A stretch of 64,000 bases of DNA, taken from Cutibacterium namnetense (GTDB taxonomy: Bacteria > Actinomycetota > Actinomycetes > Propionibacteriales > Propionibacteriaceae). The notes below the pieces were generated by a model. That model was not told the origin of the DNA. It saw only the letters and a program-made list of their open reading frames with translations, and did not search any database. This document shows positions 2,133-39,190 of the stretch, in pieces. The position numbers and the translations under genes were made by a program. The stretch lies in the NCBI RefSeq assembly GCF_001642025.1, contig NZ_LWHO01000010.1, forward strand, positions 49,240-113,239. Direction: 5' to 3'. Every line of letters starts with the position of its first letter. Within the stretch, counting starts at the first letter, position 1.

Positions 2133-2168
2133 GCAGACTTGAGCGCGCCCCAAAGGGCTAGGTGACGT

Positions 2169-4069: not shown

Positions 4070-4106
4070 GCGGGCAGATCGGTGATCGAACAGCGCCCAC
4101 GGCCGT

Positions 4107-6942: not shown

Positions 6943-7082
6943 TGATCCCTTGTGAGCGCGCCGACCCCGTTGCCGACACTACTGGTACCGAGGGTATTAC
7001 GAACGGAGTGATTCATCTCCCGAAGCTCGATCGAAGACTCAGCTGCAGGATGCTGTTCGATGTCGGCGTAACCCCCAGCTAG

Positions 7083-7991: not shown

Positions 7992-8095
7992 ACTCTCATC
8001 ATGCCTTGTTGAACCCCACCTGTCTGCTCCCCAGAGCGGCAATCCGATCGGCTTTCAGCGGATCCGCAGCAAGCCCACGCCGACGTGGTCTGAGG

Positions 8096-8557: not shown

Positions 8558-8558
8558 C

Positions 8559-9701
8559 TCACTTCACCTCCCACGGTCGCGGAGAGTCCTGCCGGATAGC
8601 GTCCCGAAGCCTCTCCACGGCATACCGGGCGTTGTCGTCAAGATTCTCCGGGACGGTGATCTCAACGGTAGCCAGCAAGTCCCCCCTGCTGCCGTCAGAA
8701 CGCGGCACACCACGTCCTCGCACCCGGAAGGTCCGGCCATTCGGTGTCCCGGCCGGAATCCGAAGCCGGACGGTCGTTCCCGTCAGAGTGGGCACCTCGA
8801 CCTCAGCCCCCAGAGCGGCCTCCGGAAAAGTCACCGGCACGGTGACGGTGAGGTTGTGACCGTCACGGCCAAAGATCTCGTGAGAACGCACCGCCACCTT
8901 GACGTAAAGATCACCCGCCTTACCACCGTTCTCTCCTGGGGACCCCTTGCCCTTAATGCGAATGCGTTGGCCATCCTCCACGCCGGCAGGGATACGGATC
9001 TGCATGGACTTGGTGGACTTGGCCCGACCCGATCCGTGGCAGACCTGGCAAGGATCCTCGACGACCATGCCTCGACCGTGGCAGTCGGGACAAGGCTCGG
9101 ACATCTCGAACACCCCACCAACCGAACTGGCGTGCATGCCCGACCCCTGACACGTCGAGCACACTCTCGGCACAGTCCCAGCGCGAGCTCCAGTCCCCCG
9201 ACATGCCTGGCAGGGGGCCTGAGAGACCAAGTCCATAGTGACGGTAGTCCCAGACACGGCGTCATCGAAGGAGATTGTCGTCTCCCCTTCAACGTCAGCT
9301 CCCCGACGTGGCGACCGGGATGCCGTGCGCCGGCCTCCGCTAGCCCCAAAGAGATTGCCGAACAAGTCACCGAACCCGTCCCCGTTAGAGGCAGTGCGGA
9401 GGAAATCCTCTACGTTAACGTTGGTCTGCGCTCCACCACGCGGGAACCGGAACCCACCTGCCGACCCAAACAGGCTACGAGCCTGGTCATACTCCTTGCG
9501 CTTCTTGGCATTCGACAGCACGTCGTTGGCCTCCGAAGCCTCCTTGAAACGGGCCTCAGCACTTTTATCACCAGGGTGGGAGTCGGGATGGTTGTCCCGG
9601 GCGATCGTGCGGAACGCTTTCTTAATTTCTTCGGGCTTTGCGTCCTTGGAGACGCCAAGGATCTTGTAGTAGTCCTTCTCGGCCCAGTCTTTGGTACTCA
9701 T
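8559..9701 (-). CDS. dnaJ: Chaperone DnaJ (Hsp40)
   Basis: A 380-residue type I J-protein that stimulates the DnaK ATPase and delivers unfolded substrates. The J-domain has the HPD motif (NHPDSHPGD) near residue 38. It is followed by a Gly/Phe-containing region and a zinc-binding domain with four CxxCxGxG repeats (CQACRGTG, CSTCQGSG, CPDCHGRG, CQVCHGSG) near residues 145-210. The C-terminal substrate-binding domains complete the protein. Length and order match DnaJ1 of actinobacterial dnaK operons. It lies about 80 bp after grpE and directly upstream of hspR on the same strand. Regulation should be through the HspR sites before dnaK. Confidence 0.97.
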   Translation of the reverse strand: MSTKDWAEKDYYKILGVSKDAKPEEIKKAFRTIARDNHPDSHPGDKSAEARFKEASEANDVLSNAKKRKEYDQARSLFGSAGGFRFPRGGAQTNVNVEDFLRTASNGDGFGDLFGNLFGASGGRRTASRSPRRGADVEGETTISFDDAVSGTTVTMDLVSQAPCQACRGTGARAGTVPRVCSTCQGSGMHASSVGGVFEMSEPCPDCHGRGMVVEDPCQVCHGSGRAKSTKSMQIRIPAGVEDGQRIRIKGKGSPGENGGKAGDLYVKVAVRSHEIFGRDGHNLTVTVPVTFPEAALGAEVEVPTLTGTTVRLRIPAGTPNGRTFRVRGRGVPRSDGSRGDLLATVEITVPENLDDNARYAVERLRDAIRQDSPRPWEVK

Positions 9702-9779
9702 CTAGTTCCTCCCTCCCTGGTCATCGTCGGGTTTGCGGCCATGACCGCCTTCTTCAATCATTGTCGGCCAACAGCGCCG

Positions 9780-10445
9780 TCACTCGTTACGCGGCGTCTC
9801 GTCGGTCTCGTCCGCCGCAGCGGACTCGTCATCAGCTTGGCCGGACTCATCGGGCGATGTTGCGTTGGGATCCGGGTCCGAAACAGCCACGCGCGCCGGA
9901 CGCACGACGCGATCGCCAAGCTTGTAGCCGGGCTGCATTACCTGACTAACGGAGGTGACACAGACCCCCTCCATCGGCATCTGCATGAGTGCCTCGTGGA
10001 GGTTCGGGTCGAAGGCGTCGCCCACCTCACCGAAGCTGGTCAGCCCGTGATTGCTGGCAACCTTCTCTAACTCGTCGACAACGAGCTTGAAACCACCCTC
10101 AACCTCACCGTGCTGACGAGCCATGGCGATTGAGTCGAGCACTGGCATGAGGTCGGTGATGACCTTGTCCACGCCGGACTGACGCGACAACGCGCGGTCA
10201 CGGTCAACGCGCCTCTTGTAATTGACGTATTCGGCTTGTAGACGCTGCAGATCCTCGGTGCGCTCAGCCAGCAGGGCCTCTAGTTGGGATTCGCGGGATA
10301 GCTCCTCGGGGGCCTGCGAGTCAGTGGCCGACTGATCAGCGTCGATGTCGACGTCACCAACAATGTCGGCAAAGCGCTCGTCAACGTTGTCGTCGCGATT
10401 TTCGTCGGCCTGGTTGTCGTCAGGATTGACGTTCTTATCAGTCAT
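9780..10445 (-). CDS. grpE: Nucleotide exchange factor GrpE
   Basis: A 221-residue GrpE that releases ADP from DnaK. It has an acidic, disordered N terminus of about 60 residues. A long coiled-coil helix follows ([16 protein letters not shown]), then the C-terminal beta domain carrying the signature [12 protein letters not shown] second acidic, disordered tail ends the protein. It sits between dnaK and dnaJ on the same strand and is expected to be co-transcribed with them. The long acidic ends are usual in actinobacteria. Confidence 0.96.
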
Positions 10446-10529
10446 CTGTGTTCCTCCACGTGAGTGCCGACCGCCGGGCCGTCGTTACGGCGACCCGGCG
10501 GCGGAATTGGGGTCAGGCCGTGGCCCCGG

Positions 10530-12383
10530 TCACTTCTTCTCGTCTTCGTCGTCTACGATCTCCGCGTCGACGACGCTGTCATCGCCGGACTCCGAGCTGG
10601 CCGACTCACCATCCTGCCCCTGCGGGTTCTCAGCCTGGGCCTGCTGAGCGGCGGCGTAGATCGCCTGGCCCATGGCAGAGGCCTTCTGGTTGAGGTCGTC
10701 CATGGCGGCCTTAACCTCATCGTCGTTGTCGGTGCCTTTCAAGGTCTCCTTCAACTTGGCGATGGCCTCGGTCACCGGGGCCTTGGTGCCCTCGGGGATC
10801 TTGTCGGAGTTCTCGTCGAGGAGTTTCTCGGTGCGGAATGCCAGGGCGTCGGCTTCGTTACGCATCTCGACGGCCTCGCGGCGCTTCTTGTCAGCCTCGG
10901 CGTTGGCCTCAGCCTCCTTGACCATGCGATCGATCTCATCCTTACCCAGGGCGGACCCGCCGGTGACAGTCATGGACTGCTCCTTGCCGGTGGCCATGTC
11001 CTTGGCGTGAACGTGGACGATGCCGTTGGCGTCGATATCGAAGGACACCTCGATCTGCGGGATGCCGCGCGGAGCCGGCATCAGGCCGGTCAGCTCAAAG
11101 TTGCCCAGCGATTTGTTATCGCGGACGAACTCACGCTCACCCTGGAAGACCTGAATCATCACCGACGGCTGGTTGTCTTCAGCAGTGGTGAACACCTCCG
11201 AACGCTTGGTCGGAATGGTGGTGTTGCGCTCGATGATCTTGGTCATCACGCCACCCTTGGTCTCAATGCCAAGGCTCAGCGGAGTGACGTCGAGCAGCAG
11301 CACATCTTTGACCTCACCCTTCAGCACACCAGCCTGCAGAGAGGCACCGAGGGCAACAACCTCATCGGGGTTGACGCCCTTGTGCGGCTCCTTGCCAGCG
11401 AGTTCCTTGACGAGCTCAGCGACGGCGGGCATGCGGGTCGAGCCACCAACGAGGATGATCTCGTCAATCTGCGAGACGTTGAGGCCAGCATCCTTCATGA
11501 CGGCGTTGAACGGAGTGCGGCAGCGCTCGAGGAGATCGGAGGTCATGCGCTGGAACTCGGCGCGGGTCAGCTTCTCGTCCAGGTGGAGAGGTCCGGCTGC
11601 ACCAGCGGTGATGTAAGGCAGATTGATGTGGGTCTCAGAAGCCTGCGACAGCTCGATCTTGGCGCGCTCGGCAGCCTCCTGCAGACGCTGCTTGGCCATT
11701 TTGTCAGCGGCCAGATCGATGCCGTTGGCGTTCTTGAACTGGGTGACGAGCCAGTCGACGATGCGCTGGTCCCAATCGTCACCACCCAGGTGGTTGTCGC
11801 CATTGGTGGCCTTCACCTCGAAAACGCCGTCGGAGATATCGAGCAGGGAGACGTCGAAGGTGCCACCACCAAGATCGAAGACCAGGACGGTCTGCTCTTT
11901 GTCAGTCTTATCGAGGCCATATGCCAGGGCGGCTGCGGTGGGCTCGTTGACGATACGGTCGACGGTCAGGCCCGCGATCTCGCCGGCCTCCTTGGTGGCC
12001 TGACGCTGGGCGTCAGAGAAGTAAGCCGGGACGGTGATGACGGCGTTCGTAACGGGTTCACCGAGGTAAGCCTCGGCATCCCTCTTGAGCTTCTGCAGAA
12101 TGAACGCGCTGATCTGCTGGGGCTTGTAGGTCTTGTCGTCGACGCCCATGGTCCACGTTTCGCCCATATGACGCTTCACAGAGCGGACGGTGCGGTCAAC
12201 GTTGGTGACGGCCTGACGCTTGGCGACCTCGCCGACGAGAGTCTCACCGGAGTTAGTGAAAGCGACCACCGACGGGGTGGTGCGGGCACCCTCAGCGTTC
12301 GGGATGACGGTGGGCTCGCCGCCCTCGAGGACCGCGACGCACGAGTTGGTGGTTCCGAGGTCGATACCGACTGAACGAGCCAT
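10530..12383 (-). CDS. dnaK: Chaperone DnaK (Hsp70)
   Basis: A 617-residue Hsp70 chaperone. The N-terminal actin-like ATPase domain begins [20 protein letters not shown], has the phosphate-2 motif [12 protein letters not shown] and the adenosine motif [12 protein letters not shown]. The substrate-binding domain includes [14 protein letters not shown] and a helical lid, and the protein ends in an acidic Asp/Glu-rich tail (DDEDEKK). The start has a strong AGGAGGAA ribosome site 7 nt upstream. It is the first gene of dnaK-grpE-dnaJ-hspR. Its upstream region carries three HAIR-type inverted repeats, so induction on heat stress by loss of HspR binding is expected. Confidence 0.98.
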
Positions 12384-12427
12384 AGTTGATTTCCTCCTGA
12401 TGGACGAATGTTCTGGGACTACATCCC

Positions 12428-12448
12428 CTTGAGCGACTTCGACTCAAC
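12428..12448. promoter_or_regulatory. HAIR operator 1 (HspR site) upstream of dnaK
   Basis: The sequence is CTTGAGC-N7-ACTCAAC, which differs from the HspR consensus CTTGAGT-N7-ACTCAAG only at the outermost base of one arm and the innermost base of the other. It lies 45 bp before the dnaK start and overlaps the predicted -10 region. Confidence 0.88.
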
Positions 12449-12475
12449 CTTAGACTCTGAGTCCCCGGCACTCAA
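12447..12475 (-). promoter_or_regulatory. Predicted dnaK operon promoter
   Basis: On the minus strand, TTGAGT (12475-12470) and TAAGGT (12452-12447) are separated by exactly 17 bp and resemble a vegetative sigma promoter. The -35 lies within HAIR site 2 and the -10 touches HAIR site 1, so HspR bound there would block RNA polymerase. This is inference from sequence only. Confidence 0.55.
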
Positions 12476-12476
12476 G
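12456..12476. promoter_or_regulatory. HAIR operator 2 (HspR site) upstream of dnaK
   Basis: The sequence is TCTGAGT-N7-ACTCAAG. One arm is perfect and the other has two mismatches to the HspR consensus. Its perfect arm overlaps the predicted -35 hexamer of the dnaK promoter. Confidence 0.8.
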
Positions 12477-12501
12477 TTGACGTAGGCTGATTTTCCAAGA
12501 A

Positions 12502-12522
12502 ATTGAGCTCAGTAGACTCAAC
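12502..12522. promoter_or_regulatory. HAIR operator 3 (HspR site) upstream of dnaK
   Basis: The sequence is ATTGAGC-N7-ACTCAAC, a near-consensus HspR inverted repeat located upstream of the predicted -35. As I recall, Streptomyces dnaK also has three such repeats. Confidence 0.82.
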
Positions 12523-12597
12523 CGATGGGCCGCCGGGGGTATTCCAAACCCATCGAAACTCTGCCAGGACACCTTCAGATGGCTCTGTGCGGCCATG

Positions 12598-12627
12598 AAA
12601 AATGCCGGACGGACAACCCGCCCGGCA
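12598..12627 (-). terminator. Terminator after the phosphate-transport genes
   Basis: On the minus strand a GC-rich hairpin (TGCCGGGCGGG pairing with CCGTCCGGCA, one mismatch) is followed by five U residues encoded by the A-run at 12598-12602. It lies about 20 bp after the stop of the small membrane-protein gene and separates that unit from the dnaK control region. Confidence 0.75.
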
Positions 12628-12648
12628 CGGCAGCTTCCGTACGTCAGA

Positions 12649-12882
12649 TCAGTGGAAATACGGGATGAGCAAGTACAACCCGTACAAGACGATGAGGCCT
12701 GCGACGCCAATCGCCGTCCAGCCCAGCGCCACCAGCCCGGCGGCACCGTCACTGCCAGCCTCCGTGCGAGCATGCGCCCGGTCCAGCATTAATGCCCCAC
12801 CCGAAACGACGGAGACAATGAGAACAGTGGCCGCGATAGTGACGATGGACACCAGCCCTAGCGAAGTCCAATCGATATTCAT
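12649..12882 (-). CDS. Small two-helix membrane protein linked to PiT transporter
   Basis: A 77-residue hydrophobic protein with two predicted membrane helices, at about residues 8-34 and 47-72, joined by a polar loop rich in Ala, Gly and Arg. I do not recognise a named family. Its ATG overlaps the stop codon of the phosphate transporter gene by 4 nt (ATGA), so the two are almost certainly translationally coupled. A terminator follows it. A similarly small membrane protein accompanies pit genes in several actinobacteria as far as I recall, so an accessory role in phosphate transport is plausible but unproven. Confidence 0.8.
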   Translation of the reverse strand: MNIDWTSLGLVSIVTIAATVLIVSVVSGGALMLDRAHARTEAGSDGAAGLVALGWTAIGVAGLIVLYGLYLLIPYFH

Positions 12883-14024
12883 GCTGCAGTCCCTCCGGCT
12901 ACGGCGGAGCCCTTACGGACGCCCACCTGGGTGGAGTCGTTAACGTTCCTATGGTCAACCTTGTGCTGGTTGGCCTGATGCACGATCAATGCGGCCATGA
13001 TTGCCAGCAAGGCGAGGTCGACAATGACGCCCCAAGTACCGACACCGGCGACGGCGGAGGTGACGGCACCTACCAGAGCGGCTGCCGGCAATGTGACGAG
13101 CCACGCGATGACCATCTTTCCAGCGGTGGCCCAGCGAACCTCAGTACGACGGCCGATGCCCGAACCCAAGATCGACCCCGAACAGACGTGGGTGGTCGAT
13201 AGCGCGAAGCCCAAGTGTGAGGAGGCCAGAATGGCGGCAGTGGAGGCCGTCTCAGCCGCAAAACCCTGCGGAGATTCGATATCACATAGACCCTTGCCCA
13301 TGGTCCGCATGATGCGCCAACCACCCGAGTAGGTACCTAGACCAATGGCACAACCAGCAGCCAGGATGACCCACCATTCCGGGCCAGTGCCGGAGGCCTG
13401 GTATCCAGCCGAAATGAGGACCAACGTTATGACACCCATCGTCTTTTGGCCGTCAGAAGTGCCATGCGCCAGAGCGACCATGGAGGCTGAGGCCCGCTGG
13501 CCATTGAGGAACATCCGCGAGGAGTGGTGGGCAGTGTGGTCGGTGATGCGGTAAGCCAGCCAGGTGGCCAATAAAGCCGCGATACCTGCAACGAACGGGG
13601 CGACTAAAGCCGGCAGGACGATCTTGCTCATAATCTTGCCAGCGTCGATGCCGCCCATGCCGGCCTCAACCAGCACGGCGCCGATAAGGCCACCAAAGAG
13701 AGCGTGGGAGGAGCTGGATGGCAGACCAAACAGCCACGTTGCCAAGTTCCAGATGATGGCGCCGATAAGCCCTGCAAACACCATGGGGGCGGTAACCAGG
13801 TGGTCGTTGACGATCCCGCCTGAGATCGTCTTGGCGACCTCAGTCGACAGGCAAGCGCCTACGACATTGAGCACGGCCGCGATAATGACAGCCACCTTGG
13901 GCTTGAGCGCTCCGGTTGCCACCGACGTCGCCATAGCGTTGGCCGAGTCATGGAAGCCGTTAGTGAAGTCGAATGCCAACGCCGTCACAACGACGATGAC
14001 CACGATTAACAGAGTCGAACTCAT
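12879..14024 (-). CDS. pit: Low-affinity inorganic phosphate transporter (PiT family)
   Basis: A 381-residue membrane transporter that imports phosphate, usually as a metal-phosphate complex driven by protons. The PiT signature FDFTNGFHDSANAMATSVATGAL is near the N terminus (residues about 17-39). The second signature, ALAHGTSDGQKTMGV, lies in the second half; both repeats together define the family. The open frame extends 76 codons upstream, but ATG 14024 has a GAAGGA ribosome site and starts exactly at the membrane protein, so I chose it. It overlaps the following small gene by 4 nt. Three 11-bp-spaced repeats resembling PhoP boxes lie about 300 bp upstream, suggesting phosphate control. 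Confidence 0.95.
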   Translation of the reverse strand: MSSTLLIVVIVVVTALAFDFTNGFHDSANAMATSVATGALKPKVAVIIAAVLNVVGACLSTEVAKTISGGIVNDHLVTAPMVFAGLIGAIIWNLATWLFGLPSSSSHALFGGLIGAVLVEAGMGGIDAGKIMSKIVLPALVAPFVAGIAALLATWLAYRITDHTAHHSSRMFLNGQRASASMVALAHGTSDGQKTMGVITLVLISAGYQASGTGPEWWVILAAGCAIGLGTYSGGWRIMRTMGKGLCDIESPQGFAAETASTAAILASSHLGFALSTTHVCSGSILGSGIGRRTEVRWATAGKMVIAWLVTLPAAALVGAVTSAVAGVGTWGVIVDLALLAIMAALIVHQANQHKVDHRNVNDSTQVGVRKGSAVAGGTAA

Positions 14025-14315
14025 GCAAGATCCTTCGTGCGGGCCGTAACGCCCCCGGACGACGAGCTGGGATCCCCCGCCCCTCACCGGAGCGGGGAGG
14101 ACGGTCAGCCAGAACCCGGGAGCAGCTCCGGCCGGCTGACACGTTACGCCCAGTTGGCCCATCTTCGCGCGGCGGGATCGACTCAAATGACATCGAGGTG
14201 AACGATTTTCGCCTGCCGCACTGCGTATCTGGCGCAAGGTTTCACCGGGCAAGCCTGACGATCACGGTATTTGGCATGGCAGTCCCCGCCATCGCACCAC
14301 CGTGCTCATACTCTC

Positions 14316-14344
14316 GTTAGCCAAGAGTTCACCATGAGTTCACA
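14316..14344. promoter_or_regulatory. PHO-box-like direct repeats (candidate PhoP site)
   Basis: Three heptamers repeat with exact 11-bp periodicity: GTTAGCC (14316), GTTCACC (14327) and GTTCACA (14338). Actinobacterial PhoP binds direct 11-bp repeats with a GTTCACC core. The site lies about 290 bp upstream of pit (minus strand) and 180 bp upstream of deoC (plus strand). Pit is the more likely target because of its function. The rest of the 14025-14524 gap shows no gene that I can support. Confidence 0.6.
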
Positions 14345-14524
14345 TCAACGCTGACCCCAACAGGCGCTAAGTCCTTTCCATCCACACCGGGGAGCACGAA
14401 GGCCACCAGGCAAAGCTGATTTTTCGCATTGCCCCTTGATTCATGGCACTCCCCCGCAACCTCACAGCTCTAGCCGCGCCCATGCCAGTAGGCTGGATGC
14501 ACTTATCCAACCGAAGGAGTCGGC

Positions 14525-15199
14525 ATGTCCCCCGCCCCACTGTCTGCCACCAAGCTGGCCCGCATGATCGATCACACCCTGCTGACCCCTGAGGCCACCC
14601 ACGACGATGTCGCCAAGTTGGTCGCCGATGCCAAAGAGTATGGGACGTGGTCGGTGTGTGTGTCACCGTCGATGCTGCCGCTGGACCTCGACATGGGGGA
14701 CGTGCATTTGGCTGTCGTATGCGGGTTCCCGTCAGGCAAGCACACCAGCGCTGTGAAAGCCGCTGAGGCTCGCGAGGCTATCGCCGCTGGAGCCGAGGAA
14801 GTCGACATGGTGATCAATCTTGGGCTGGTCAAGGAGGGACGTTGGAAAGACGTCACCGCCGATATCGCCGCCGTCAAGCAAGCCGTTCCGGATCCGAAAA
14901 TCCTCAAAGTCATCATCGAGTCGGCGGTACTGACCGACGACGAGATCGTGCGGGCGTGCAGGGCTGCGGAGGGAGCCGGCGCCGACTTCGTCAAGACCTC
15001 GACGGGTTTCCACCCCAGCGGCGGCGCGAGCGTCGCGGCAGTCAAGACCATGGCCGACACCGTCGGTGGACGGCTGGGCGTCAAAGCTTCAGGTGGCATC
15101 CGCGACTACCAGACGGCATGCGCGATGGTCGAGGCCGGGGCGACGCGGCTAGGAGTTTCCTCGACCGCCAAGATCCTTGCCGGAGCACCCCAGGAGTGA
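14525..15199 (+). CDS. deoC: Deoxyribose-phosphate aldolase
   Basis: A 224-residue class I aldolase that splits 2-deoxyribose 5-phosphate into glyceraldehyde 3-phosphate and acetaldehyde in deoxynucleoside catabolism. The (beta/alpha)8 barrel shows the motifs IDHTLL near residue 15, EVDMVINLG near residue 92, and the Schiff-base lysine in DFVKTSTGF near residue 155. The second conserved lysine is in VKASGGIRD. The start has a good GAAGGAG ribosome site. It is a single gene, convergent with the ThuA-like gene. No other deo genes are nearby, although a nucleoside hydrolase occurs further along the window. Confidence 0.96.
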
Positions 15200-30365: not shown

Positions 30366-31331
30366 TCAGCTCAATCCCGTCCGCAATGTCGTCAAAAGAT
30401 GCTCAATGAACCCCTCAGCATCGACGTCGCACAACAGATCGACGTTGGGTTCCTTGCCCCAGCGCCCCAACTCGTCACCGACAGTTTGACCGCGAGTCAG
30501 CGTCCCGGCTAGTTCGACATCGACAGCCAACGGGCGCGTGCTGGCAAATCTCCCCGTCACAGCGTTGGCGACCACCAAGGGATCATGCAGATAGGCGCAC
30601 CACCCCAGGCCGTCAGCCTGGTGAAACTGGAAGTAGAACCGCAAAGCGTCACTCAGGACGGCTATGACCGGGTGATCCCCCAGATTTTCCACGGCGTGCA
30701 GATGCTCGTCGTCGAGACGAATGACCTCGGTAGCCTGCAGCGCCCCCAGCACAACTCGCCTCGACGCCTTCCCCCACGCCTCGAACACCTCATGGCCGGC
30801 TTCTGGGTCCACCGCGATGTTCCACTCACTCGTCGGCCCAGTGTTGCCACGATGATTGATCGCCCCGCCCATGACGTGCAGCCCCCGCAACAACCGCGGC
30901 AATTCCGGTTCCTCCCGCAGCGCCAGCGCGAGATTCGTCAATGGCCCGGTGACGATACCCACCAACTCTCCTGGGTACCGGTGCGCCAGATCAACCCACA
31001 GTTGTGCCCCACTACGCGAATCCGGGCGGCGCCCGCACTCCCCTAGCACAGCGTGCCCCAACCCGTGCGGCCCGTGGGTCTCCTCGGCGGTCTTGAAAGG
31101 CTCGGCGAGCGGAACGTCCGCCCCTCGGGCAACCGGCGCGTCCATCCCAAGAAGATCAGTCAGCCCAAGCGCGTTTCGCAGCACATCGTCTTGTCCCACG
31201 TTGCCGGCTGTCGTCACCACTCCGACGGTCTCAACGTCGTCACGACAGGCCAAGTAGGCCAGGGCGAAGGCGTCATCAATACCCGGATCACAGTCCAACA
31301 GAACGGGCAGGGAGCGCGTAGAAGTCGGCAT
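30366..31331 (-). CDS. Nucleoside hydrolase (inosine/uridine-preferring family)
   Basis: A 321-residue N-ribohydrolase that cleaves nucleosides to base and ribose. The calcium-binding family signature LLDCDPGIDDAFAL is at residues 10-23. VTGPLTNLALAL near residue 125, EWNIAVDPEA near residue 167, and the active-site segment YLHDPLVV near residue 245 complete the family pattern. Length is typical. It would provide salvage of purines or pyrimidines together with deoxyribose use by deoC elsewhere in the window. It lies 70 bp after the TetR gene of the next operon on the same strand and may be read through from it. Base preference is not visible. Confidence 0.92.
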   Translation of the reverse strand: MPTSTRSLPVLLDCDPGIDDAFALAYLACRDDVETVGVVTTAGNVGQDDVLRNALGLTDLLGMDAPVARGADVPLAEPFKTAEETHGPHGLGHAVLGECGRRPDSRSGAQLWVDLAHRYPGELVGIVTGPLTNLALALREEPELPRLLRGLHVMGGAINHRGNTGPTSEWNIAVDPEAGHEVFEAWGKASRRVVLGALQATEVIRLDDEHLHAVENLGDHPVIAVLSDALRFYFQFHQADGLGWCAYLHDPLVVANAVTGRFASTRPLAVDVELAGTLTRGQTVGDELGRWGKEPNVDLLCDVDAEGFIEHLLTTLRTGLS

Positions 31332-31400: not shown

Positions 31401-32039
31401 TTACGCCGACGTTCCGGGGAACAGACCGTGCTCCATCCCCGCGATGATGAACTCAATCTTGAGATCGAGATTCCCGCGCTCCCCCATGTTCTGCATTCCG
31501 AACAGTTCTGGCAGCTCACCGACGATCCCCGCGAACCTGTCCAACCCGGTGCGACCGTCCTCGTCGAGGGTTTGGTACGGCTGGATCGACATGTACGTCT
31601 CCAGGACCGTGTCCCCCGCGAAATCCATGGCGAAGGCTGCCCCGTCCTTACCCCCGGGGATACCAAGCCCGGCTAACCTTTCCACGATCGCCGTGATCCG
31701 CGGCAGAGCTACTCCGAACGCCTCGGGTCGGGTGACGATGACGGTGGCCGCCTCCGGATAGCGGGCACACATCTGCCACTGCCGATCCACGACGTCGCGC
31801 AGCACCTCCTGCCAGGTGCACAACTGGGGATCCGGTTCAATCTCGGCGGCTATCGCACTAATCGCGGCAAGCTGCAACTCCTGGCGAGAACTGAACTCCC
31901 GGTACAAGGCGGTGGCCTTCACGCCGAGACGCTCAGCAACCGCCCGAAGGGTGAAACTGCCAATTCCTTCAGCCAGGGCGGCGTCAATGACCTGACGTCG
32001 TGTGAACGCCGGCTTACGCCCCGGCCGTTTGCTGATCAC
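31401..32039 (-). CDS. TetR-family transcriptional regulator of the ECF/ABC operon
   Basis: A 212-residue TetR-type regulator. The helix-turn-helix is in residues about 10-45 (FTRRQVIDAALAEG, then LRAVAERLGVKATALYREF). The rest is the all-helical ligand domain. Its GTG start at 32039 overlaps the stop codon of the preceding ABC transporter gene by 4 nt (GTGA), so it is the last cistron of the six-gene operon. The longer frame upstream lies inside that ABC gene and was not used. It may regulate its own operon or respond to the transported compound. The ligand is unknown. Confidence 0.88.
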   Translation of the reverse strand: MISKRPGRKPAFTRRQVIDAALAEGIGSFTLRAVAERLGVKATALYREFSSRQELQLAAISAIAAEIEPDPQLCTWQEVLRDVVDRQWQMCARYPEAATVIVTRPEAFGVALPRITAIVERLAGLGIPGGKDGAAFAMDFAGDTVLETYMSIQPYQTLDEDGRTGLDRFAGIVGELPELFGMQNMGERGNLDLKIEFIIAGMEHGLFPGTSA

Positions 32040-33826
32040 CGCTGGCCCACAAGCGACCACCCCACAGCCCGTTCCCGGGCATGCCACAGATCGGCATACC
32101 GGCCGCTGCTGGCGATGAGATCGTCATGGGTTCCCACTTGGCAAACCCTACCAGTGCGATCGACGACGACTATCTGATCCGCCGAACGAATAGTGTCGAG
32201 CTTGTGGGCGATAACCACAATTGTCGAATTCTGTCGCAGTTGCGTCATAGCCGCCTCGACGTGGGCCTCATTGTCCGGGTCCAAGGCCGAAGTAGCTTCG
32301 TCGAAGAGCAAGATCGGGGCGCGTTTGAGCAAGGCCCGAGCCACTGACACCCGCTGACGTTCACCACCTGAAAGTCGACGACCGCCCTCTCCGACGCTGG
32401 CATCCCAACCGCCCGGAAGACGAGCAGCAATCTCATCGACACCGGCCAGGGCTCCGGCCTGACGCACTTGCTCGTCGGTGGCGTCCGGGCAACCGATGCG
32501 GATGTTCTCGGCCAAAGTGGAGTCGTAGAGGTAGACGTCCTGGAAAACCATGGCGAGCTGGCCCATGAGCTGCTCGGTGGTCTGATCGCGGACATCAGCC
32601 CCACCAACCCGCACCGTTCCAGAATCAACATCCCAGAACCTCGCAATAAGCCGGAACAGGGTGGTCTTGCCAGCGCCCGAGGGCCCGACGATGGCCGTCA
32701 GTCCACCTGCCGGAGCAGTGAACGAGATGTCATGGACGACAGGGCAAGCCTGATCGTAACCGAAAGAGACACCCTCGAAGCTCACCTCACCGGGAGCGGG
32801 AAGACCCGCCGGGACGTCTGGCTCAGCAAGCACGGTAGCCGAGAGGATCTCGTCAACCTCGGCGACCGGTTCACGGGCCATCTCAATGCCTAGGGTCGCG
32901 GCGCAGACGTCCTCCAACACCTTCGTGTAGCGCAACGAGACGCCAATGAAGGCCACCGCCACGACCGGGCTCAGCCGTCCTGATCCGCCCAGGTTCGCAG
33001 CGAGCACGATGAGGGTCACGGCAATGCCCTGAGCCGCCAGCCCAGAGACGAAATTCGCCAACACCTCTAGCCACAGATCCTTGCGGGCAGCACGCCCACT
33101 AGCCACCTGGGCATCGTGAAGAGGTTTGTAGCCGCTGGCGCGCCCAGCTGCCCGCAGTGCAGGCTGGGACTGGCAGAACTCGACGATTCGAGCCGCCAAT
33201 TCTTGCTCAGTGGGGTACGTCAACGCCTCACCGCGAAGCTTGAGGGCGCGCGAGGCGATCGTAAGAAGGTAGATGATCGGGATGGCAAGGAGCAGGGCCA
33301 ACCCCAACTCCCACGACCACACCCAGGCCAAGACCATCATGACGAGGGTAGTGGTCATACCTTTCACCAGCGGGGCGGTGAAATGCCCTAAGCACTCACC
33401 CAGCGTCATGAGTCCGCGCGTCAACAAGCGCGAGAGGCGGGCAGGAAAGCTCGACCGGAACCACCCCAATGGCAGGCTGGCAACGTGATCACCGATACGG
33501 GTGCTGAGGTGACTCAAGACGTCCATCCCGCAGAGATACCCAGTACTCGCCTGAAGGTACGACACCACAGCCCCGGCAACGGCCAGGGCAGCGAGCACCC
33601 ACACCCAGCCCCACCAAGTCAGGCCCAATGAGGACTGTCCCATCACGAAAGCGGTAAACGTCGGGATGACGGCAAATAAACCGACTCCCTCGATCACTCC
33701 TAGCGCACCGGCCCACGCCAAAGAACTGTGAAACCGCCGGGTGCCCTCGTCGGTCAATAATGGTTGGAATGCCCGTGCCAGGAGGATGTCCCCGGCCCAG
33801 GAAAGACGTGACGACGTGGTGCTCAT
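32036..33826 (-). CDS. ABC transporter half-molecule, exporter fold (second of pair)
   Basis: A 596-residue fusion of a six-helix membrane domain (residues about 30-320) and an ATPase domain. Walker A is GPSGAGKTTLF, the signature is LSGGERQRVS, Walker B is ILLFDEATSALD and the H-loop is VIAHKLDTI; all catalytic elements are intact. It pairs with the preceding half-transporter, overlapping it by 4 nt (ATGA). Exporter-fold pairs placed with metallophore genes, such as IrtAB and YbtPQ, act as importers. The DtxR-like box on this operon makes a similar iron-related role plausible here. Drug export is the alternative. Confidence 0.9.
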   Translation of the reverse strand: MSTTSSRLSWAGDILLARAFQPLLTDEGTRRFHSSLAWAGALGVIEGVGLFAVIPTFTAFVMGQSSLGLTWWGWVWVLAALAVAGAVVSYLQASTGYLCGMDVLSHLSTRIGDHVASLPLGWFRSSFPARLSRLLTRGLMTLGECLGHFTAPLVKGMTTTLVMMVLAWVWSWELGLALLLAIPIIYLLTIASRALKLRGEALTYPTEQELAARIVEFCQSQPALRAAGRASGYKPLHDAQVASGRAARKDLWLEVLANFVSGLAAQGIAVTLIVLAANLGGSGRLSPVVAVAFIGVSLRYTKVLEDVCAATLGIEMAREPVAEVDEILSATVLAEPDVPAGLPAPGEVSFEGVSFGYDQACPVVHDISFTAPAGGLTAIVGPSGAGKTTLFRLIARFWDVDSGTVRVGGADVRDQTTEQLMGQLAMVFQDVYLYDSTLAENIRIGCPDATDEQVRQAGALAGVDEIAARLPGGWDASVGEGGRRLSGGERQRVSVARALLKRAPILLFDEATSALDPDNEAHVEAAMTQLRQNSTIVVIAHKLDTIRSADQIVVVDRTGRVCQVGTHDDLIASSGRYADLWHARERAVGWSLVGQR

Positions 33827-35688
33827 CGGGTGGCCCCCGCCATGATTCGTCCCGCCGACAGCCGCACCCAGTAGGGCTGGTCGGCTAATTGCTCAGCGGT
33901 ACCGCAGGCTGTGATGGAGCCGTTCTCCATGACGCAAATGACATCAGCCCCAGTCACCGACTCAGCGTGATGACCGATGACCAGCACAGTTCGGCCTCGG
34001 GCCAAAGCGGCCAGGGCCTGCTGAATCTCAACCTCGCAGTCTGGATCGGTGGCCGCGGTCGCCTCGTCCAGGACGAGGATCGGAGCATCGGCCAGCACCG
34101 CGCGCGCAATGGACAGACGCTGCTTTTGTCCACCCGAGAAGTTGGTGTCCTCACCCAGCACGGTGTCGAAACCGGCAGGCAGGGCATCGATGTCGGCGAG
34201 GATCTGGGCCGTGCGGGCGGCGTCACGAATCTGCTTATCGGTGGCATCAGGACGAGCCAGGGCGATGACGTCACGGATGGATCGACGCTGCAGATACGGG
34301 TCCTGCAGCACGAAGGAGACGAGTCGGTAGAGGTCCGCCGGGGCGAGGTCCTTGAGGTCCACCCCACCGATGCGCACCGTACCGAGATCGGGATCGCGGA
34401 ATCGAGCCAGCATCGTCGCGAGGGTCGACTTGCCCGACCCGGACGGCCCCACCAGGGCCGTGACGGTACCCGGACGTAACGTCAAGCAGACGTGGTTGAG
34501 GGCCGGGACGTCACCGTCAGGAGTGTGATACGAGACGCTGACGTCGTCAAAGGTGACCGTCGTGTCCTCGGGAATCACAGAGCTGGCACTAGGTTGGTCG
34601 ATTTGTTCGATGGACAGGACCTCCTGCAGACGCAACGCTGCGCCACCGGCCTGCTGGTACATCCACGCCGTATTCCCCAGCACCTCGATGGTGCGGGGCA
34701 GCACTAGGGCGATAAGGGAGCAGGTGAGGACATCGGCGACGCCCACCCAGCCGGCCCTGGCCATGAGCAGACCGAAACCGAGATTGATCGCCATAAGCGC
34801 AGGCACCGAAATCACCGACTGCGACAGGGCAGACGCCTTGATGAGCGGGCCGCACCAGTCCCAGTAGAACCGGGCAAACTCCTGGCAAGCAGCAGTGAAG
34901 CGGCGGTGAGCCTTGCCTGTCTGGCCGAAGTTCTTGACGACGTGGACGCCCTCGGTCAACTCGATGGCGTTGGCCGAGATGTCGGCAAGCTTGTCGTCCA
35001 TCTCGGCAGTCTTAGCGGCCATCCCCCGCATCGACCACCACTGCAACAGGGCGTAGATCGGGAACGTCGCAAGGCAGAGCAAACCTAGCCGCCAGTCCAC
35101 CACGAAGGCGTAAACGAGCAGCACCAGGGGAATGCCGATCGCCGCGGTCTGATCCACCGGGGCGTGGGCGACAAGTGCATGCACCTGGACGGTGTCGTCT
35201 TGAATGGCTTTGCGGACCCGCCCGGTGGACGATGAGCTGAACCACGCCAGCGGTGCTCGGCAGAGGCGCCCGATGATGCGATCCTGCATGATGCTGCGCA
35301 GTTTGAGATCAGCGAAATGTGTGACGACAAGGGCTACCACGTAGAGCAGGGCCTGAGTGCAAAAGGCCACCACCAACAGGTTCGCGGTGTGTACGAGGGC
35401 ATCGTGGTCGACGTGGGCGCTCAGCAGGATGGTGCCGAGCTTCGTCAGGGCCAGATAGGGGGCCACAGCAACGACACAGGAGGCGACCACGATAGTCCGC
35501 GCCAGCAGGATCCGTCCCCGGATCGGTCGCATGAGCGATGAAAGGGCTCTGTCACCGGCACGATGCTTGGCCTGGTAGTCGTGGGGGCTCGCAGCGGATG
35601 CAGCGGCTTGGGCGGTCACGGGGGCTGGCATCACCGGCTGGGACGAGCCAACGGTGAGAGCAGGATCAGCTGGGGTGGCCCTGCTCAC
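33823..35688 (-). CDS. ABC transporter half-molecule, exporter fold (first of pair)
   Basis: A 621-residue half-transporter with a membrane domain from about residue 55 to 350 and a C-terminal ATPase. Walker A is GPSGSGKSTLATM, the signature FSGGQKQRLS, Walker B ILVLDEATAATD and the H-loop region VIGHHAESV. Residues 1-50 form a Pro/Ala-rich cytoplasmic extension. The GTG start at 35688 overlaps the stop of the S-component gene by 4 nt (GTGA); the frame continues upstream inside that gene but was not used. With the next gene it should form a heterodimer. See the operon finding for its likely iron-related function. Confidence 0.9.
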   Translation of the reverse strand: MSRATPADPALTVGSSQPVMPAPVTAQAAASAASPHDYQAKHRAGDRALSSLMRPIRGRILLARTIVVASCVVAVAPYLALTKLGTILLSAHVDHDALVHTANLLVVAFCTQALLYVVALVVTHFADLKLRSIMQDRIIGRLCRAPLAWFSSSSTGRVRKAIQDDTVQVHALVAHAPVDQTAAIGIPLVLLVYAFVVDWRLGLLCLATFPIYALLQWWSMRGMAAKTAEMDDKLADISANAIELTEGVHVVKNFGQTGKAHRRFTAACQEFARFYWDWCGPLIKASALSQSVISVPALMAINLGFGLLMARAGWVGVADVLTCSLIALVLPRTIEVLGNTAWMYQQAGGAALRLQEVLSIEQIDQPSASSVIPEDTTVTFDDVSVSYHTPDGDVPALNHVCLTLRPGTVTALVGPSGSGKSTLATMLARFRDPDLGTVRIGGVDLKDLAPADLYRLVSFVLQDPYLQRRSIRDVIALARPDATDKQIRDAARTAQILADIDALPAGFDTVLGEDTNFSGGQKQRLSIARAVLADAPILVLDEATAATDPDCEVEIQQALAALARGRTVLVIGHHAESVTGADVICVMENGSITACGTAEQLADQPYWVRLSAGRIMAGATR

Positions 35689-36278
35689 TTCGTCAGTCCC
35701 GCCCGCTGGAAGTGCTTGCGCCCCATCTTGATGCCCAGCCAGCCGCCAAGGAGCCCAACCAGAAACACCACGACGGACCATCCGGCGATCAGGCCCGGGG
35801 TGAACAGTGCTCGCATCTTATTGGAGTAATCGGCACCCATTTGCTTGGTGATCATGTCGTAGTACTCATCGGCGTTCACAACGATCGGTATCAGTGGCAC
35901 GATCATCCAGAGAATGAAGACCGCGTAGCCGAGGGATGCCCGGCGCGGGTCCAGGCGAACATTGCGCCCGGCATTAGTGGCGATGAGGTCAGCAATGAAA
36001 CCAAGCACGAGTCCGGCAGGGATCATCCAGATGGTGTGGCTGGGCGTCATGCCAAGCCCGACAAGCAGCCCAGTGATCGTCAAGGTGCCCATCTTCGGAA
36101 CACGAGTCATTGACAAGATCAAGACAACGCCACCCAGCAATATACCGAGGATCCAACCGACGAACATAAACGCAGGGCCGGCGAAACCGATCATCCCGCA
36201 GGCGTAGAAAGCGACAAAGAAAATCACCGCGAAGATGGCGACAGTCACCAGATCGCGTGTGGTTAGGCGTGAGTTCAT
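35685..36278 (-). CDS. ECF transporter S component (MptD/Trep_Strep-like)
   Basis: A 197-residue membrane protein with about six predicted helices and short loops. It begins MNSRLTTRDLVTVAIFAVIFFVAF, and the family-like segment GxxxGxxADLIA occurs in the middle. It resembles the MptD / Trep_Strep family of ECF substrate-binding subunits, which give the transporter its specificity. ATG 36278 overlaps the stop of the fused ATPase gene by 4 nt (ATGA). With EcfT and the double ATPase it forms a complete ECF importer. The ligand cannot be told from sequence; the iron-type operator suggests heme, a siderophore or a metal complex. Confidence 0.82.
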   Translation of the reverse strand: MNSRLTTRDLVTVAIFAVIFFVAFYACGMIGFAGPAFMFVGWILGILLGGVVLILSMTRVPKMGTLTITGLLVGLGMTPSHTIWMIPAGLVLGFIADLIATNAGRNVRLDPRRASLGYAVFILWMIVPLIPIVVNADEYYDMITKQMGADYSNKMRALFTPGLIAGWSVVVFLVGLLGGWLGIKMGRKHFQRAGLTK

Positions 36279-37807
36279 GATTTCCCTTTCAAGGTGGCGA
36301 TATTGACCAGATAGTCCCCACACCGGGCCATGAGCTCCGGGTCGTGAGTGATGACGATGACAACTTTCCCGGCGGTGGCGAGTCCTGCGACGAGATCAGC
36401 GATGGAGGCGAGATGCCGGCGGTCGACGCCCGAGGTGGGTTCATCGAAGATGACGATCTCCTTGTCCTGCGCGATGGTGGCCGCGACGACGAGTCGCTGG
36501 GCCTGCCCGCCTGACAAGGACAAAGGGTGACGATCACGTTCGTCGGCCAGGTCGAGACGTTCCAGAAGTCCTGATGTGTCAGCGGCATCTCGATGCGGAG
36601 TATCAAGGCCGAGCGTGATCTCACGCTCCACCGATTCGCTAAAAAGCTGACGACGAACGTCCTGCATCACCATCCCGCAACATTTCTGACGCCTGCCGGG
36701 GGTCCAGGGCACTCCCATGCCGATGCGAGCTTCGGGAGGGGATTTTTCGAGCCCGCACACGATTCGAGCCAACGTCGACTTCCCCGCACCGTTCGGGCCG
36801 GTCAGAATCGTCACCGCACCAGCAGGCAGGAACAGGGAATCGATGTCGAGAATCGTCGAGCCGGGACGGTAGGAGAAAGTGAGGTGCTCGATGGTCAGCC
36901 CTGCCGGGATTTTCGTGCCGCCGGCTGCGGTGGAATCGGAGCGCATGAGCTTGCCTCGAATCACCGGAGCAAAAGGTGCTGGGGCCTGCGGTGGCGTGGG
37001 CAGGTCAACTGGGTGCACGTCGAGACTGCGCAGACCCCGCTCCAGCAACTCCTCCTCCGTCAAGACAAACAAGTCGCTACGACTCATCCGCTCAACAATC
37101 TGTCCACCGGAGACACGATGAACGTCGTCAACAAGTCCGCGGAACAGGTGCAAGCGGTGCTCAGCGATCACGAGGGTTTTGTTGGCGGCCTTGAGCTCGC
37201 CAACGAGGGTGCGAAAATCGTCGATTCCCTCGGCTGAGAGGTTCGAGGTCGGTTCATCGAAAAGTAGCAGGTCAACATCAGCCACCAATGCACAGGCGCA
37301 GGCGACCCGTTGCAGTTCCCCGCCTGAAAGAGTGTCGAGGTGGCGGTCGAGCAGGTGGGAGATACCGGTTTGGGCGACCGCACGGCAGACGGCTTGGCGG
37401 ATCTCATCGGGATCGACCCCGTAGTTCTCCAGTCCGAAAGCCAGCTCGGTGCGCACGTTGGAGGTAAAGAACTGAGTGCGGGGGTTTTGGAAGATCATCG
37501 CGCAGGTGCGGCCGACATCATGCAGTTCGACACCGGCCAGGTCGGTGCCCTGGACCATGACTTGGCCTCGCAGCGTTCCCCCGAAGAACTTGGGGACGAG
37601 TCCATTCATTGTCCTCAGCAGGGTGGACTTCCCTGATCCCGACGCCCCTACCAGCAGGGTGAGCGTGCCCGGCCGGATCGTCATCGTGATGTCACGGAGT
37701 TGCTCGACGACCTCCCGCACGGGAGACGGGCCGTCGGCGAACGGCGAGGAGTCGGGGTCGAATGACGGGTAGCCGTAGCTGATGCTGTCGAGGCTGACGA
37801 TGCTCAC
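36275..37807 (-). CDS. Fused ECF transporter ATPase (EcfA-EcfA' in one chain)
   Basis: A 510-residue protein with two complete ABC ATPase domains. Domain 1 has Walker A GASGSGKSTLL, a Q-loop IFQNPRTQFF, signature LSGGELQRV and Walker B LLLFDEPTSNL. Domain 2, from about residue 300, has GPNGAGKSTLA, LSGGQAQRL, IVIFDEPTSGVD and ITHDPEL. Two separate EcfA subunits are the rule in Firmicutes; a fusion is common in actinobacteria. The GTG start at 37807 overlaps the EcfT stop by 4 nt (GTGA). It powers the ECF importer encoded by its neighbours. Confidence 0.93.
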   Translation of the reverse strand: MSIVSLDSISYGYPSFDPDSSPFADGPSPVREVVEQLRDITMTIRPGTLTLLVGASGSGKSTLLRTMNGLVPKFFGGTLRGQVMVQGTDLAGVELHDVGRTCAMIFQNPRTQFFTSNVRTELAFGLENYGVDPDEIRQAVCRAVAQTGISHLLDRHLDTLSGGELQRVACACALVADVDLLLFDEPTSNLSAEGIDDFRTLVGELKAANKTLVIAEHRLHLFRGLVDDVHRVSGGQIVERMSRSDLFVLTEEELLERGLRSLDVHPVDLPTPPQAPAPFAPVIRGKLMRSDSTAAGGTKIPAGLTIEHLTFSYRPGSTILDIDSLFLPAGAVTILTGPNGAGKSTLARIVCGLEKSPPEARIGMGVPWTPGRRQKCCGMVMQDVRRQLFSESVEREITLGLDTPHRDAADTSGLLERLDLADERDRHPLSLSGGQAQRLVVAATIAQDKEIVIFDEPTSGVDRRHLASIADLVAGLATAGKVVIVITHDPELMARCGDYLVNIATLKGKS

Positions 37808-38622
37808 GCGATCACCTCGCTGGCACGCCACACAACCAGAGCGGCCAAAATCGTCAGCACGAGGGCGTCGCCGACACGAAAACGACTCGGCTGGGTGGTT
37901 GATCGGGATTTTTGTGCACCGAGCCCCTTAATGATGGCGGCTGCGGAAAGTTCATCGGCAATGCGGGCGGCCGAGGCCAGGAAAGGGATGACGACGTACT
38001 CGGCGGTGCGCATCGGGTGACGCACAGCCGACCGCGCCCCAGGGTTGAGGCCACGCAGGGTCATGGCTTGGACGATCGCTCGCAATTCACGTACCGCCAT
38101 CGGGAAGAACCGCACTACTACCATGACGGGCACGTAGACGACCTGCGGAGCATGCATCCGGGTGAGGACCGCGCCGACCTGAGTGACATCGAGGACCTTG
38201 ATCGCTGCCACCGCCGCGCCGAAAACCCCGGCGAAGCGGAACATCCAGAAGGCGATAAAGACCAGGAACGCCGATACCGTTGAGCGCCACAGCATTGGGA
38301 GCAGGAAGCAGCAGAAAATCCACACCAGGACGAAGATCGTCCAGTTGAGCCAGGTCCGCGGTCGGGTGGTTAGGACCAGGAATACTCCAACGACCCCAAG
38401 GCTGGCCATCACGAGGGCTGTCGATCCTGCCCCCATGAGCAGGATGTTGAGAACGATGACGTAGAGGGCGAGGGTGCGTGGATCCACTGTGCCGAACAGC
38501 TGTCGAGAGTGGCGAGTGCGGACTGCCGGAGTGACGCCGAAACCTGCCCCGGCAACCGGGCAGCCATTGGGAAGGCGGTGAGCTCCTCCAGGCAACGCCA
38601 GGGTCACCTCGTCATGCTTCAT
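37804..38622 (-). CDS. ECF transporter transmembrane coupling component (EcfT/CbiQ)
   Basis: A 272-residue membrane protein of the CbiQ/EcfT family, the scaffold joining the S component to the ATPases. About five predicted helices fill residues 45-155. The two short coupling motifs near MTLRGLNPG and IIKGLGAQ correspond to the ATPase-contacting ARG-type motifs. It is the first gene of the operon. No ribosome site precedes ATG 38622; a TAGGGT hexamer ends 6 nt before it, so the mRNA may be leaderless. A DtxR/IdeR-like box overlaps this promoter and abuts the start codon. Confidence 0.9.
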   Translation of the reverse strand: MKHDEVTLALPGGAHRLPNGCPVAGAGFGVTPAVRTRHSRQLFGTVDPRTLALYVIVLNILLMGAGSTALVMASLGVVGVFLVLTTRPRTWLNWTIFVLVWIFCCFLLPMLWRSTVSAFLVFIAFWMFRFAGVFGAAVAAIKVLDVTQVGAVLTRMHAPQVVYVPVMVVVRFFPMAVRELRAIVQAMTLRGLNPGARSAVRHPMRTAEYVVIPFLASAARIADELSAAAIIKGLGAQKSRSTTQPSRFRVGDALVLTILAALVVWRASEVIA

Positions 38623-38640
38623 AAGGTAACCCTATCCCAT
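38622..38640. promoter_or_regulatory. DtxR/IdeR-like iron box at the ECF/ABC operon promoter
   Basis: Read on the plus strand the 19-bp site is TAAGGTAACCCTATCCCAT. By hand alignment it matches 14 of 19 positions of the DtxR/IdeR consensus TWAGGTTAGSCTAACCTWA. It covers the predicted minus-strand -10 (TAGGGT, 38634-38629), with TTAACA at 38656-38651 as -35 (16-bp spacer). Binding of an iron-loaded repressor would block initiation. Confidence 0.6.
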
Positions 38641-38776
38641 AAATGATTGCTGTTAACAAATACCTCCTCTCCCGCCTTGGCCCGGAGTTGGCATAGCAGC
38701 GCCGTATAAGCCCCCTGCCACCACGTGAGGCACGATGGAAGGGCCGACGACCAGTTACCGAAGAACAGGTGTGAGC

Positions 38777-39190
38777 ATGACTAACTTGGAGAAGACCCCA
38801 TCTCGCGGCGAGAAGATTCTCGCCGCTGTGGTCGCCTTCGCCCTCTGGATGGCCGTGGTATTCGCGATTGTGGCGATTTTCGTCGGCTGGCGGTGGTCGC
38901 TGCGGTTGTTCGTCGGGGTGCTCCTCGTCGGCATCCCCGGAGAAGTCATTATTGAACTTGTCGGTCGAGGACAGCTGCCGAGCGGCGCATCCAGAGCCCG
39001 AGGCTCCCGCGGCTCGCGATTACTCCTCTCGGCACTCATCCTTATCGCCTGGGCGTTCATCGTTCTCGCGGCGACTGCCCTCATCCAGCCGTGGTACGGC
39101 GCTACTGGTGACATGGCCTGGGTGATGGTCGTGGGGATTGCGGCGATCCTCATGCAGGAGGGCATCGACACCCGAAAGAAAAAGTCCTAG
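38777..39190 (+). CDS. Four-helix membrane protein, unknown function
   Basis: A 137-residue integral membrane protein with four predicted helices at about residues 15-37, 42-62, 82-105 and 112-130, and a basic C terminus (TRKKKS). The loop between helices 2 and 3 is rich in Arg, Ser and Gly. I do not recognise a family. A GTG at 38771 in the same frame is an alternative start; neither has a strong ribosome site. It is divergent from the ECF operon across about 150 bp and followed 200 bp downstream by the EcsC-family gene. Confidence 0.7.
   Translation: MTNLEKTPSRGEKILAAVVAFALWMAVVFAIVAIFVGWRWSLRLFVGVLLVGIPGEVIIELVGRGQLPSGASRARGSRGSRLLLSALILIAWAFIVLAATALIQPWYGATGDMAWVMVVGIAAILMQEGIDTRKKKS

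Follow-up and report, generated by a model that had tools for sequence, protein, structure and literature searches.

We analyzed a 64,000-nucleotide stretch of the skin-type bacterium Cutibacterium namnetense (RefSeq assembly GCF_001642025.1, contig NZ_LWHO01000010.1, forward-strand positions 49,240 to 113,239), which as a whole is referred to here as the window and whose first letter is position 1. On its minus strand, from 38622 to 31401, lies a run of six genes in which Pfam and NCBIfam profiles recognize the transmembrane component (EcfT), the fused ATPase (EcfAA) and the S component of an energy-coupling factor (ECF) transporter, two ATP-binding cassette (ABC) half-transporters of the exporter fold (ABC1 and ABC2) and a TetR-family regulator. 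We propose that these genes probably constitute a DtxR-controlled operon for the uptake of an iron complex not produced by the cell itself. The features on which this proposal draws are the following.

38622..38640, minus strand: putative DtxR/IdeR-like box, matching TWAGGTWAGSCTWACCTWA at 15 of 19 positions; its final base doubles as the A of the EcfT start codon, ATG
37804..38622, minus strand: EcfT, transmembrane component of the ECF module, 272 amino acids (aa); PF02361 CbiQ, 28.9 bits (cut-off 25)
36275..37807, minus strand: fused EcfA-EcfA' ATPase with a refined GTG start and two ABC_tran stretches
35685..36278, minus strand: S component of the Trep_Strep/MptD family, 197 aa, with its ATG start refined to 36278
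35838..36038 (span), minus strand: S-component residues H81, Y118 and M147, three single codons lying inside it
33823..35688, minus strand: ABC1, exporter-fold half-transporter of IrtA/YbtP type, 621 aa, with a refined GTG start
35164..35319, minus strand: ABC1 residues H124, H170 and H175, single codons aligned to IrtA H356, H402 and H407
32036..33826, minus strand: ABC2, exporter-fold half-transporter of IrtB type, 596 aa (ABC_membrane and ABC_tran)
31401..32039, minus strand: TetR-family regulator with its GTG start refined to 32039; PF00440 TetR_N, 32 bits (cut-off 24)

All five junctions can be read as 4-nt NTGA overlaps (GTGA, ATGA, GTGA, ATGA and GTGA), which set the starts of EcfAA (37807), the S component (36278), ABC1 (35688), ABC2 (33826) and TetR (32039). 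The identical five overlaps recur in all four other genomes of the genus with a full operon (G002, G004, G005 and G006). The initial annotation had described a six-gene operon with a 4-nt overlap at every junction, and both statements are borne out by the family assignments and by the retention of the overlaps in these sister genomes. Longer upstream starts are unlikely for TetR, where four of five orthologues have a stop one residue upstream of the refined start, and for ABC1, where one of five has a stop ten residues upstream. Neither a promoter nor a terminator was detected in scans of the two ends of the operon.

The ECF part of the operon has the makeup of a dedicated transporter, with EcfT and two EcfA domains encoded alongside the S component. 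EcfT, which is 74-76% identical in four sister genomes, has no NCBIfam match at E 0.001. For EcfAA, which carries two Walker A and two signature motifs, the top NCBIfam match is the ECF ATPase TIGR04520, under its full-length cut-off, and TIGR01166 (CbiO) is matched above cut-off. The S component matches PF09605 Trep_Strep at 158.6 bits (cut-off 28.7) and TIGR02185 MptD at 87.2 bits (cut-off 76.45) and displays the six-helix S-component fold; Foldseek alone, run on its model, returned no match at E<=0.001.

The assignment of the exporter-fold halves was based on PDB searches with the membrane domains only. ABC1 matches IrtA at 84.7 bits, followed by YbtP (47.9) and CydD (45.3), and ABC2 matches IrtB at 63.8 and 43.5 bits, followed by P-glycoprotein (P-gp) at 37.2. 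YbtQ is absent among the 43 hits of the ABC2 membrane domain and reaches 250.6 bits with the full-length query. Subunit by subunit, the membrane domains correspond to IrtAB and, in part, to YbtPQ. The nucleotide-site motifs (Walker A, signature, Walker B and H-loop) are canonical in both halves; the exporter TM287/288 is described as having one degenerate nucleotide site (PMC10246721).

The combination of an ECF module with an exporter-fold pair is widespread. Among the best 80 of 191 relatives, which we compared as loci (certain contigs break off early, and certain loci contain two or more modules), the S component, EcfT and EcfAA occur together in 73, an adjacent full-length ABC pair is present in 54, the pair falls within the same gene run in 38, and a half with the metal triad considered below is found in 57, all of these counts being given without a chance expectation. 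By the names of their records, the relatives span Actinomycetes, Coriobacteria, Firmicutes and Treponema, and in L026, L040, L044, L045 and L047 the pair is likewise followed on its 3' side by a TetR gene. Some loci are more elaborate. L049 holds three S-T-AA (S component, EcfT, EcfAA) modules in tandem with exporter-fold halves nearby, and two Coriobacteria loci (L069 and L071) hold two modules on opposite strands, also with such halves nearby, the second module of L071 being clipped by the locus end. In Mobiluncus porci and Arachnia propionica a CDF cation-efflux gene (PF01545) directly follows the ABC pair (L032:16029-16943; L033:9956-10882).

Three histidines of IrtA are reported to bind metal (PMC10246721), and in our alignment H124, H170 and H175 of ABC1 occupy the H356, H402 and H407 columns, which makes them candidate metal ligands. 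To assign halves in the relatives, ABC1 and ABC2 labels were given by best BLAST score to halves of at least 500 aa with more than 150 bits and at least 60% coverage. All 58 ABC1-type halves in related ECF loci carry H-H-H (30) or H-E-H (28) at the triad. The pattern H-H/E-H also appears in nine ABC2-labelled relatives, which are probably mislabelled first halves or CydC-like proteins. Each of the 60 adjacent pairs in the 80 loci contains exactly one triad half, and in 59 of them it is the first. Within the genome itself the triad is missing from five of six other exporter-fold halves checked, the sixth being a CydC-like half with H-E-H; several of these halves matched ABC1 mainly in the ATPase domain, so that their triad columns come from the multiple alignment alone, and two with internal stops (L127, L134) were left out. 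The triad has a second point of reference in E. coli CydC, whose His85 is described as a heme ligand (PMC13337084) and aligns with the first histidine of the CydC-like half and, through it, with that of ABC1. The triad therefore marks iron/heme-type pairs, and not siderophore importers alone.

Candidate ligand positions of the S component vary in a patterned way. Across 61 sequences (the window, 58 of the 80 named loci, L016 and L017, with L065 and L068 out on account of stops and the other 20 not entered), positions 81, 118 and 147 read H/Y/M in 26 and M/H/Y or M/H/F, in a second subfamily, in 19; the remaining 16 differ. In loci having both proteins the S and triad types go together, H/Y/M with H-H-H in 18 of 19 and M/H/Y or M/H/F with H-E-H in 14 of 14, a match that is confounded by phylogeny. 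The sole exception is L042, whose pair lies on the opposite strand. Twelve more loci of these S types have no triad half within reach, and the 15 loci with mixed-type S components divide into 11 with H-H-H and four with H-E-H.

The second line of evidence concerns regulation. The initial annotation had placed a site matching 14 of 19 positions of the DtxR/IdeR consensus over the promoter and start codon of EcfT. The site exists and is backed by orthologues, and it does overlap the start codon; its score hinges on the consensus chosen, since it amounts to 15/19 against the degenerate TWAGGTWAGSCTWACCTWA and to just 12-13/19 against strict consensuses. The promoter part of the claim is not supported, no sigma-70-type promoter having been found at 38500-38800. 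The box at 38622-38640 is alone in the window in reaching 15; 200 simulations from a first-order Markov model give an expectation of 0.08 such sites per 64 kb. It is held at the EcfT start in five sister genomes at 14-16/19, and an element TTGTTAAC is kept upstream of it in five of six genus sequences, reading TTATTAAC in G003. Two genomes from other genera of the same family (G020 and G023) carry orthologous S-T-AA-ABC1-ABC2 operons with 19/19 boxes before the S gene; in a third family relative (G028), which has S-T-AA, box and pair were not found.

More broadly, 12 of 29 non-Cutibacterium Actinomycetes loci (class labels taken from the names of sequence records) carry a box of 16-19/19 near the module start, against 0 of 29 for a reversed-pattern control; L018, with no box and no pair, and the Cutibacterium loci L025 and L031 (15 and 14/19) stand outside the 29. 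Fur-like sites of 15-16/19 occur in five loci, in a scan that had no control. The genome encodes one protein matching Fe_dep_repress (the DtxR family) above cut-off, and contains four sites with at most three mismatches (17-18/19), one such site being returned by a backwards-pattern control. Its four best boxes precede an HtaA gene and other open reading frames (ORFs); two of these, judged by their N-termini, resemble substrate-binding proteins. With a box before the operon, its conservation in relatives and a repressor in the genome, the operon would belong to a DtxR/IdeR-type regulon and may be repressed by DtxR in the presence of iron, the window's own site being weak. As a separate observation, a 20.7-kb mobilizable Corynebacterium plasmid (L123, NZ_CP068167.1) carries the five-gene module at 8138-14528 with an 18/19 DtxR box, and the S component is also present in two more plasmid records of identical length.

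Within Cutibacterium, full-length S component and ABC1 are encoded by five of nine genomes (G000, G002, G004, G005 and G006) and were not found in G001, G007 and G008 at the thresholds used; the C. avidum ATCC 25577 locus (L025) has an S component 79% identical to that of the window. The conservation of the six-gene order, which the initial annotation had suggested examining across genomes, is partial: the order is complete, overlaps included, in five genomes, G003 lacks the ECF part, and at these thresholds three genomes have neither part. TetR is present in all six genus loci compared. In G003 a deletion has removed what lay between roughly residue 58 of EcfT and residue 184 of the S component, leaving the pair and TetR in place, so the two parts are separable. 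At the deletion site (L015, G003:C1:2189000-2200500, positions 6057-6296) the box is kept and the EcfT ATG reads ACG.

Ratios of non-synonymous to synonymous substitution rates (dN/dS) for the operon genes mostly lie at 0.12-0.24, rising to as much as 0.98 where the genes compared are close and differ by few synonymous changes; rows comparing EcfAA with G003, in which another gene had been compared, were ignored. On the G003 lineage ABC1 shows 10 synonymous and 5 non-synonymous changes (615 codons) and ABC2 shows 4 and 5 (618 codons). If 70% of changes are taken to be non-synonymous under neutrality, and with the proviso that some of the branch may be older than the deletion, the joint binomial value for the pair is 0.004 and that for ABC2 alone 0.27.

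The surroundings of the operon are less stable. A nucleoside hydrolase gene downstream (30366-31331), considered as a seventh member, is not counted in the operon because it has no match in the five sister loci compared. A small divergent ORF upstream (38735-39190), without a Pfam match, has its homologue in L013, L014 and L015 on the other side of the operon, past TetR, and the neighbourhood has therefore been rearranged within the genus.

The operon contains no biosynthetic genes, as the initial annotation had noted, and a genome-wide search, in which other siderophore pathways were not covered, gave no hits to PF00668 (the condensation domain of non-ribosomal peptide synthetases, NRPS) or PF04183 (IucA/IucC); a siderophore taken up by this system would therefore most likely be foreign. 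Among 17 ORFs of at least 1000 aa in the relatives' loci, none of the nine scanned is an NRPS, smaller or more distant synthesis genes not having been looked for, and the other eight overlap the module or, by coordinates only, share the size and place of a scanned ORF. Staphylococcus aureus that makes staphyloferrin is reported to have a stimulating effect on individual strains of C. acnes and C. avidum, in a passage that mentions no transporter (PMC11296517).

The genome contains a further iron-related arrangement. In L152 (G000:C2:87500-99500, positions 1906-9890) an HtaA gene is followed by those for a binding protein, a FecCD permease and an ATPase and then immediately by a CydDC-like pair. 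The run has an 18/19 DtxR box and one CydDC-like half reads H-E-H at the triad, so that its sequence suggests a second iron/heme importer joined to an exporter-fold pair in the same genome.

These elements suggest the following mechanism. Under iron shortage DtxR would leave 38622-38640, as the conservation of the site implies, and allow transcription of a polycistronic, translationally coupled mRNA. The S component would bind the iron complex on the outer side of the membrane, and its import would then be the work of EcfT and the double EcfA, acting by toppling, the established ECF mechanism. The ABC1/ABC2 pair, belonging to the IrtAB/YbtPQ class and equipped with a putative tri-His site, may handle the same complex or its ligand, most likely as a second, separable route of ferric-chelate uptake, with return of the ligand as the main alternative. 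The 3' TetR probably tunes the operon in response to a ligand. As to substrate, a foreign siderophore-like chelate appears most likely, with heme second.

Several observations weigh against this account. Full-length queries with both halves place P-gp-type chains, whose two halves add up, at the top of the PDB matches. The window's own putative box is weak; of the 29 Actinomycetes relatives, 17 stay under 16/19, among them the four Corynebacterium loci in which a TetR lies 3' (11-14/19), and a box of at least 16 occurs in just one of 51 loci of other groups. The genome has a separate heme locus, and a TetR gene beside an exporter-fold pair also suits drug efflux. By analogy, two characterized systems point elsewhere: EqbKL, the homologues of the pair in Streptococcus equi, are dispensable for import (PMC3672683), and LhaS, an ECF S component for iron, is described as binding heme and not a siderophore (PMC7299338).

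The equibactin case lends itself to a division of labour, in which uptake of the ferric complex would fall to the ECF transporter and the pair would export the ligand once its iron is gone, or excess heme or porphyrin, for reuse or detoxification. In the S. equi study (PMC3672683), EqbHIJ are required for most siderophore-dependent iron accumulation, and the iron-toxicity phenotype persists after eqbKL deletion, for which the authors suggest efflux; conditioned medium of the deletion was twofold weaker, again with efflux as a possibility raised by the authors. The CydDC-like pair behind the HtaA-type importer of this genome and the alignment of the first ABC1 histidine, through the CydC-like half, with CydC His85 (PMC13337084) point the same way. 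The closest solved half-size relatives of the pair are nevertheless the importers IrtAB and YbtPQ, E. coli CydC has D131 and R136 instead of histidines at the other two triad positions, and G003 retains a pair that pure recycling would not need once the ECF part was lost. We consider this division of labour a less likely but substantial alternative. The same evidence bears on the initial annotation, which had inferred capture of a foreign siderophore or heme by a combined ECF plus ABC system: an iron-linked pair of the siderophore-importer class does adjoin an ECF importer, and a single combined importer is not established, because in the published account EqbHIJ are needed and EqbKL dispensable, and because the two parts come apart in G003.

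A second alternative retains uptake and changes the substrate to heme, with a LhaSTA-like ECF importer to which the pair has been added. His, Met and Tyr are common heme ligands, and in the S family His, Met and Tyr/Phe swap places between the two subfamilies; the alignment of a CydC heme ligand with one triad histidine and the chelation-induced import of heme by LhaSTA (PMC7299338) add to this case. It is weakened by the 16 of 61 S sequences that deviate, with Q, E, D or Y at position 81 in some and Leu in the sister genome G004, and by the DtxR-boxed HtaA locus that the genome already has. No PF01126 heme oxygenase was found in the genome, in a search that did not extend to other heme-degrading families, and this counts only mildly against heme; G008 has a PF01126 match that is split in two, with a stop in one of the pieces (G008:C1:372590-373038), the other eight genus genomes having none. 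We regard heme as a possible substrate, though not the favored one. The notion that the pair is a TetR-controlled drug exporter merely sharing an operon with a vitamin importer, to which the 3' TetR, the generic exporter fold and the vitamin binding of other S families lend some color, was rejected as very improbable in view of the iron boxes in orthologues, a metal triad missing from five of the six other exporter-fold halves checked in the genome, the subunit-specific match to IrtAB and the repeated co-occurrence of ECF module and pair in several phyla.

Uptake of a foreign iron complex thus remains our preferred reading. A more speculative extension, to which we give somewhat less credence than to either of the first two alternatives, is a cross-phylum two-stage iron machine in which the ECF transporter delivers the complex and a pair with an IrtA/CydC-type site strips, relays or returns the ligand, S components and triads occurring in matched versions. 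Whatever its mode of action, the operon belongs to a large and for the most part little-studied ECF plus exporter-fold class in Actinomycetes, Firmicutes, Coriobacteria and Treponema, many of its actinomycete members having iron-type boxes, whose proteins are labelled in no more specific terms than, for instance, 'MptD family S component' or 'ABC transporter', as on the Corynebacterium plasmid. The tri-His signature offers a sequence marker for metal-handling pairs and would place in many organisms a metal site for which those who discovered it had seen no parallel in another ABC transporter (PMC10246721). With this operon two wider questions can be put directly to the test: why an importer that is already complete should need a partner of the exporter fold, and by what means commensals that make no siderophore acquire their iron. 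As far as open-licence literature not aimed at each point allows us to judge, two things may be new here: the occurrence of the module as an orphan in Cutibacterium, with boxes of DtxR type in its relatives, and a tri-His signature that runs through the class.

Four known systems frame these results. IrtAB (mycobactin) and YbtPQ (yersiniabactin) are the closest solved half-size relatives of the pair; ABC1 retains the tri-His site known from IrtA, and the pair has two canonical ATPase sites. Unlike IrtAB and YbtPQ, the pair adjoins an ECF importer; the ABC2 membrane domain alone misses YbtQ, and ABC1, at 621 aa, lacks the N-terminal siderophore-interaction domain of IrtA, Pfam finding only ABC_membrane, ABC_tran and overlapping P-loop families even in a longer, 652-aa reading. 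CydDC, the heme/thiol pair, is a related exporter-fold heterodimer whose CydC His85 corresponds to the first triad histidine; its match to the ABC1 membrane domain is 45 bits against 85 for IrtA, and the genome has a separate CydDC-like pair. LhaSTA of Staphylococcus lugdunensis (PMC7299338) is an ECF heme importer induced by iron chelation and hence an iron-regulated ECF importer of an iron compound, as proposed here; it differs in consisting of S, T and A components only, in lying in the isd locus and in having a Fur box. The nearest counterpart is EqbHIJKL of the equibactin locus on ICESe2 of Streptococcus equi, which confirms the precedent of an ECF module with an exporter-fold pair in a siderophore locus that the initial annotation had mentioned, so that the combination itself is already known. 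As annotated in that locus (PMC8754150), it comprises the same five kinds of protein, an S component, EcfT, a duplicated EcfA and two heterodimeric exporter-fold halves, and all five are likewise found in one locus here. The equibactin genes adjoin an NRPS, whereas PF00668 was not found in the Cutibacterium genome, and the gene order here, T-AA-S-ABC-ABC plus TetR, is unlike theirs; both loci share the prospect of iron control, the equibactin locus being under the DtxR-like EqbA and the operon described here bearing a putative DtxR-type box.

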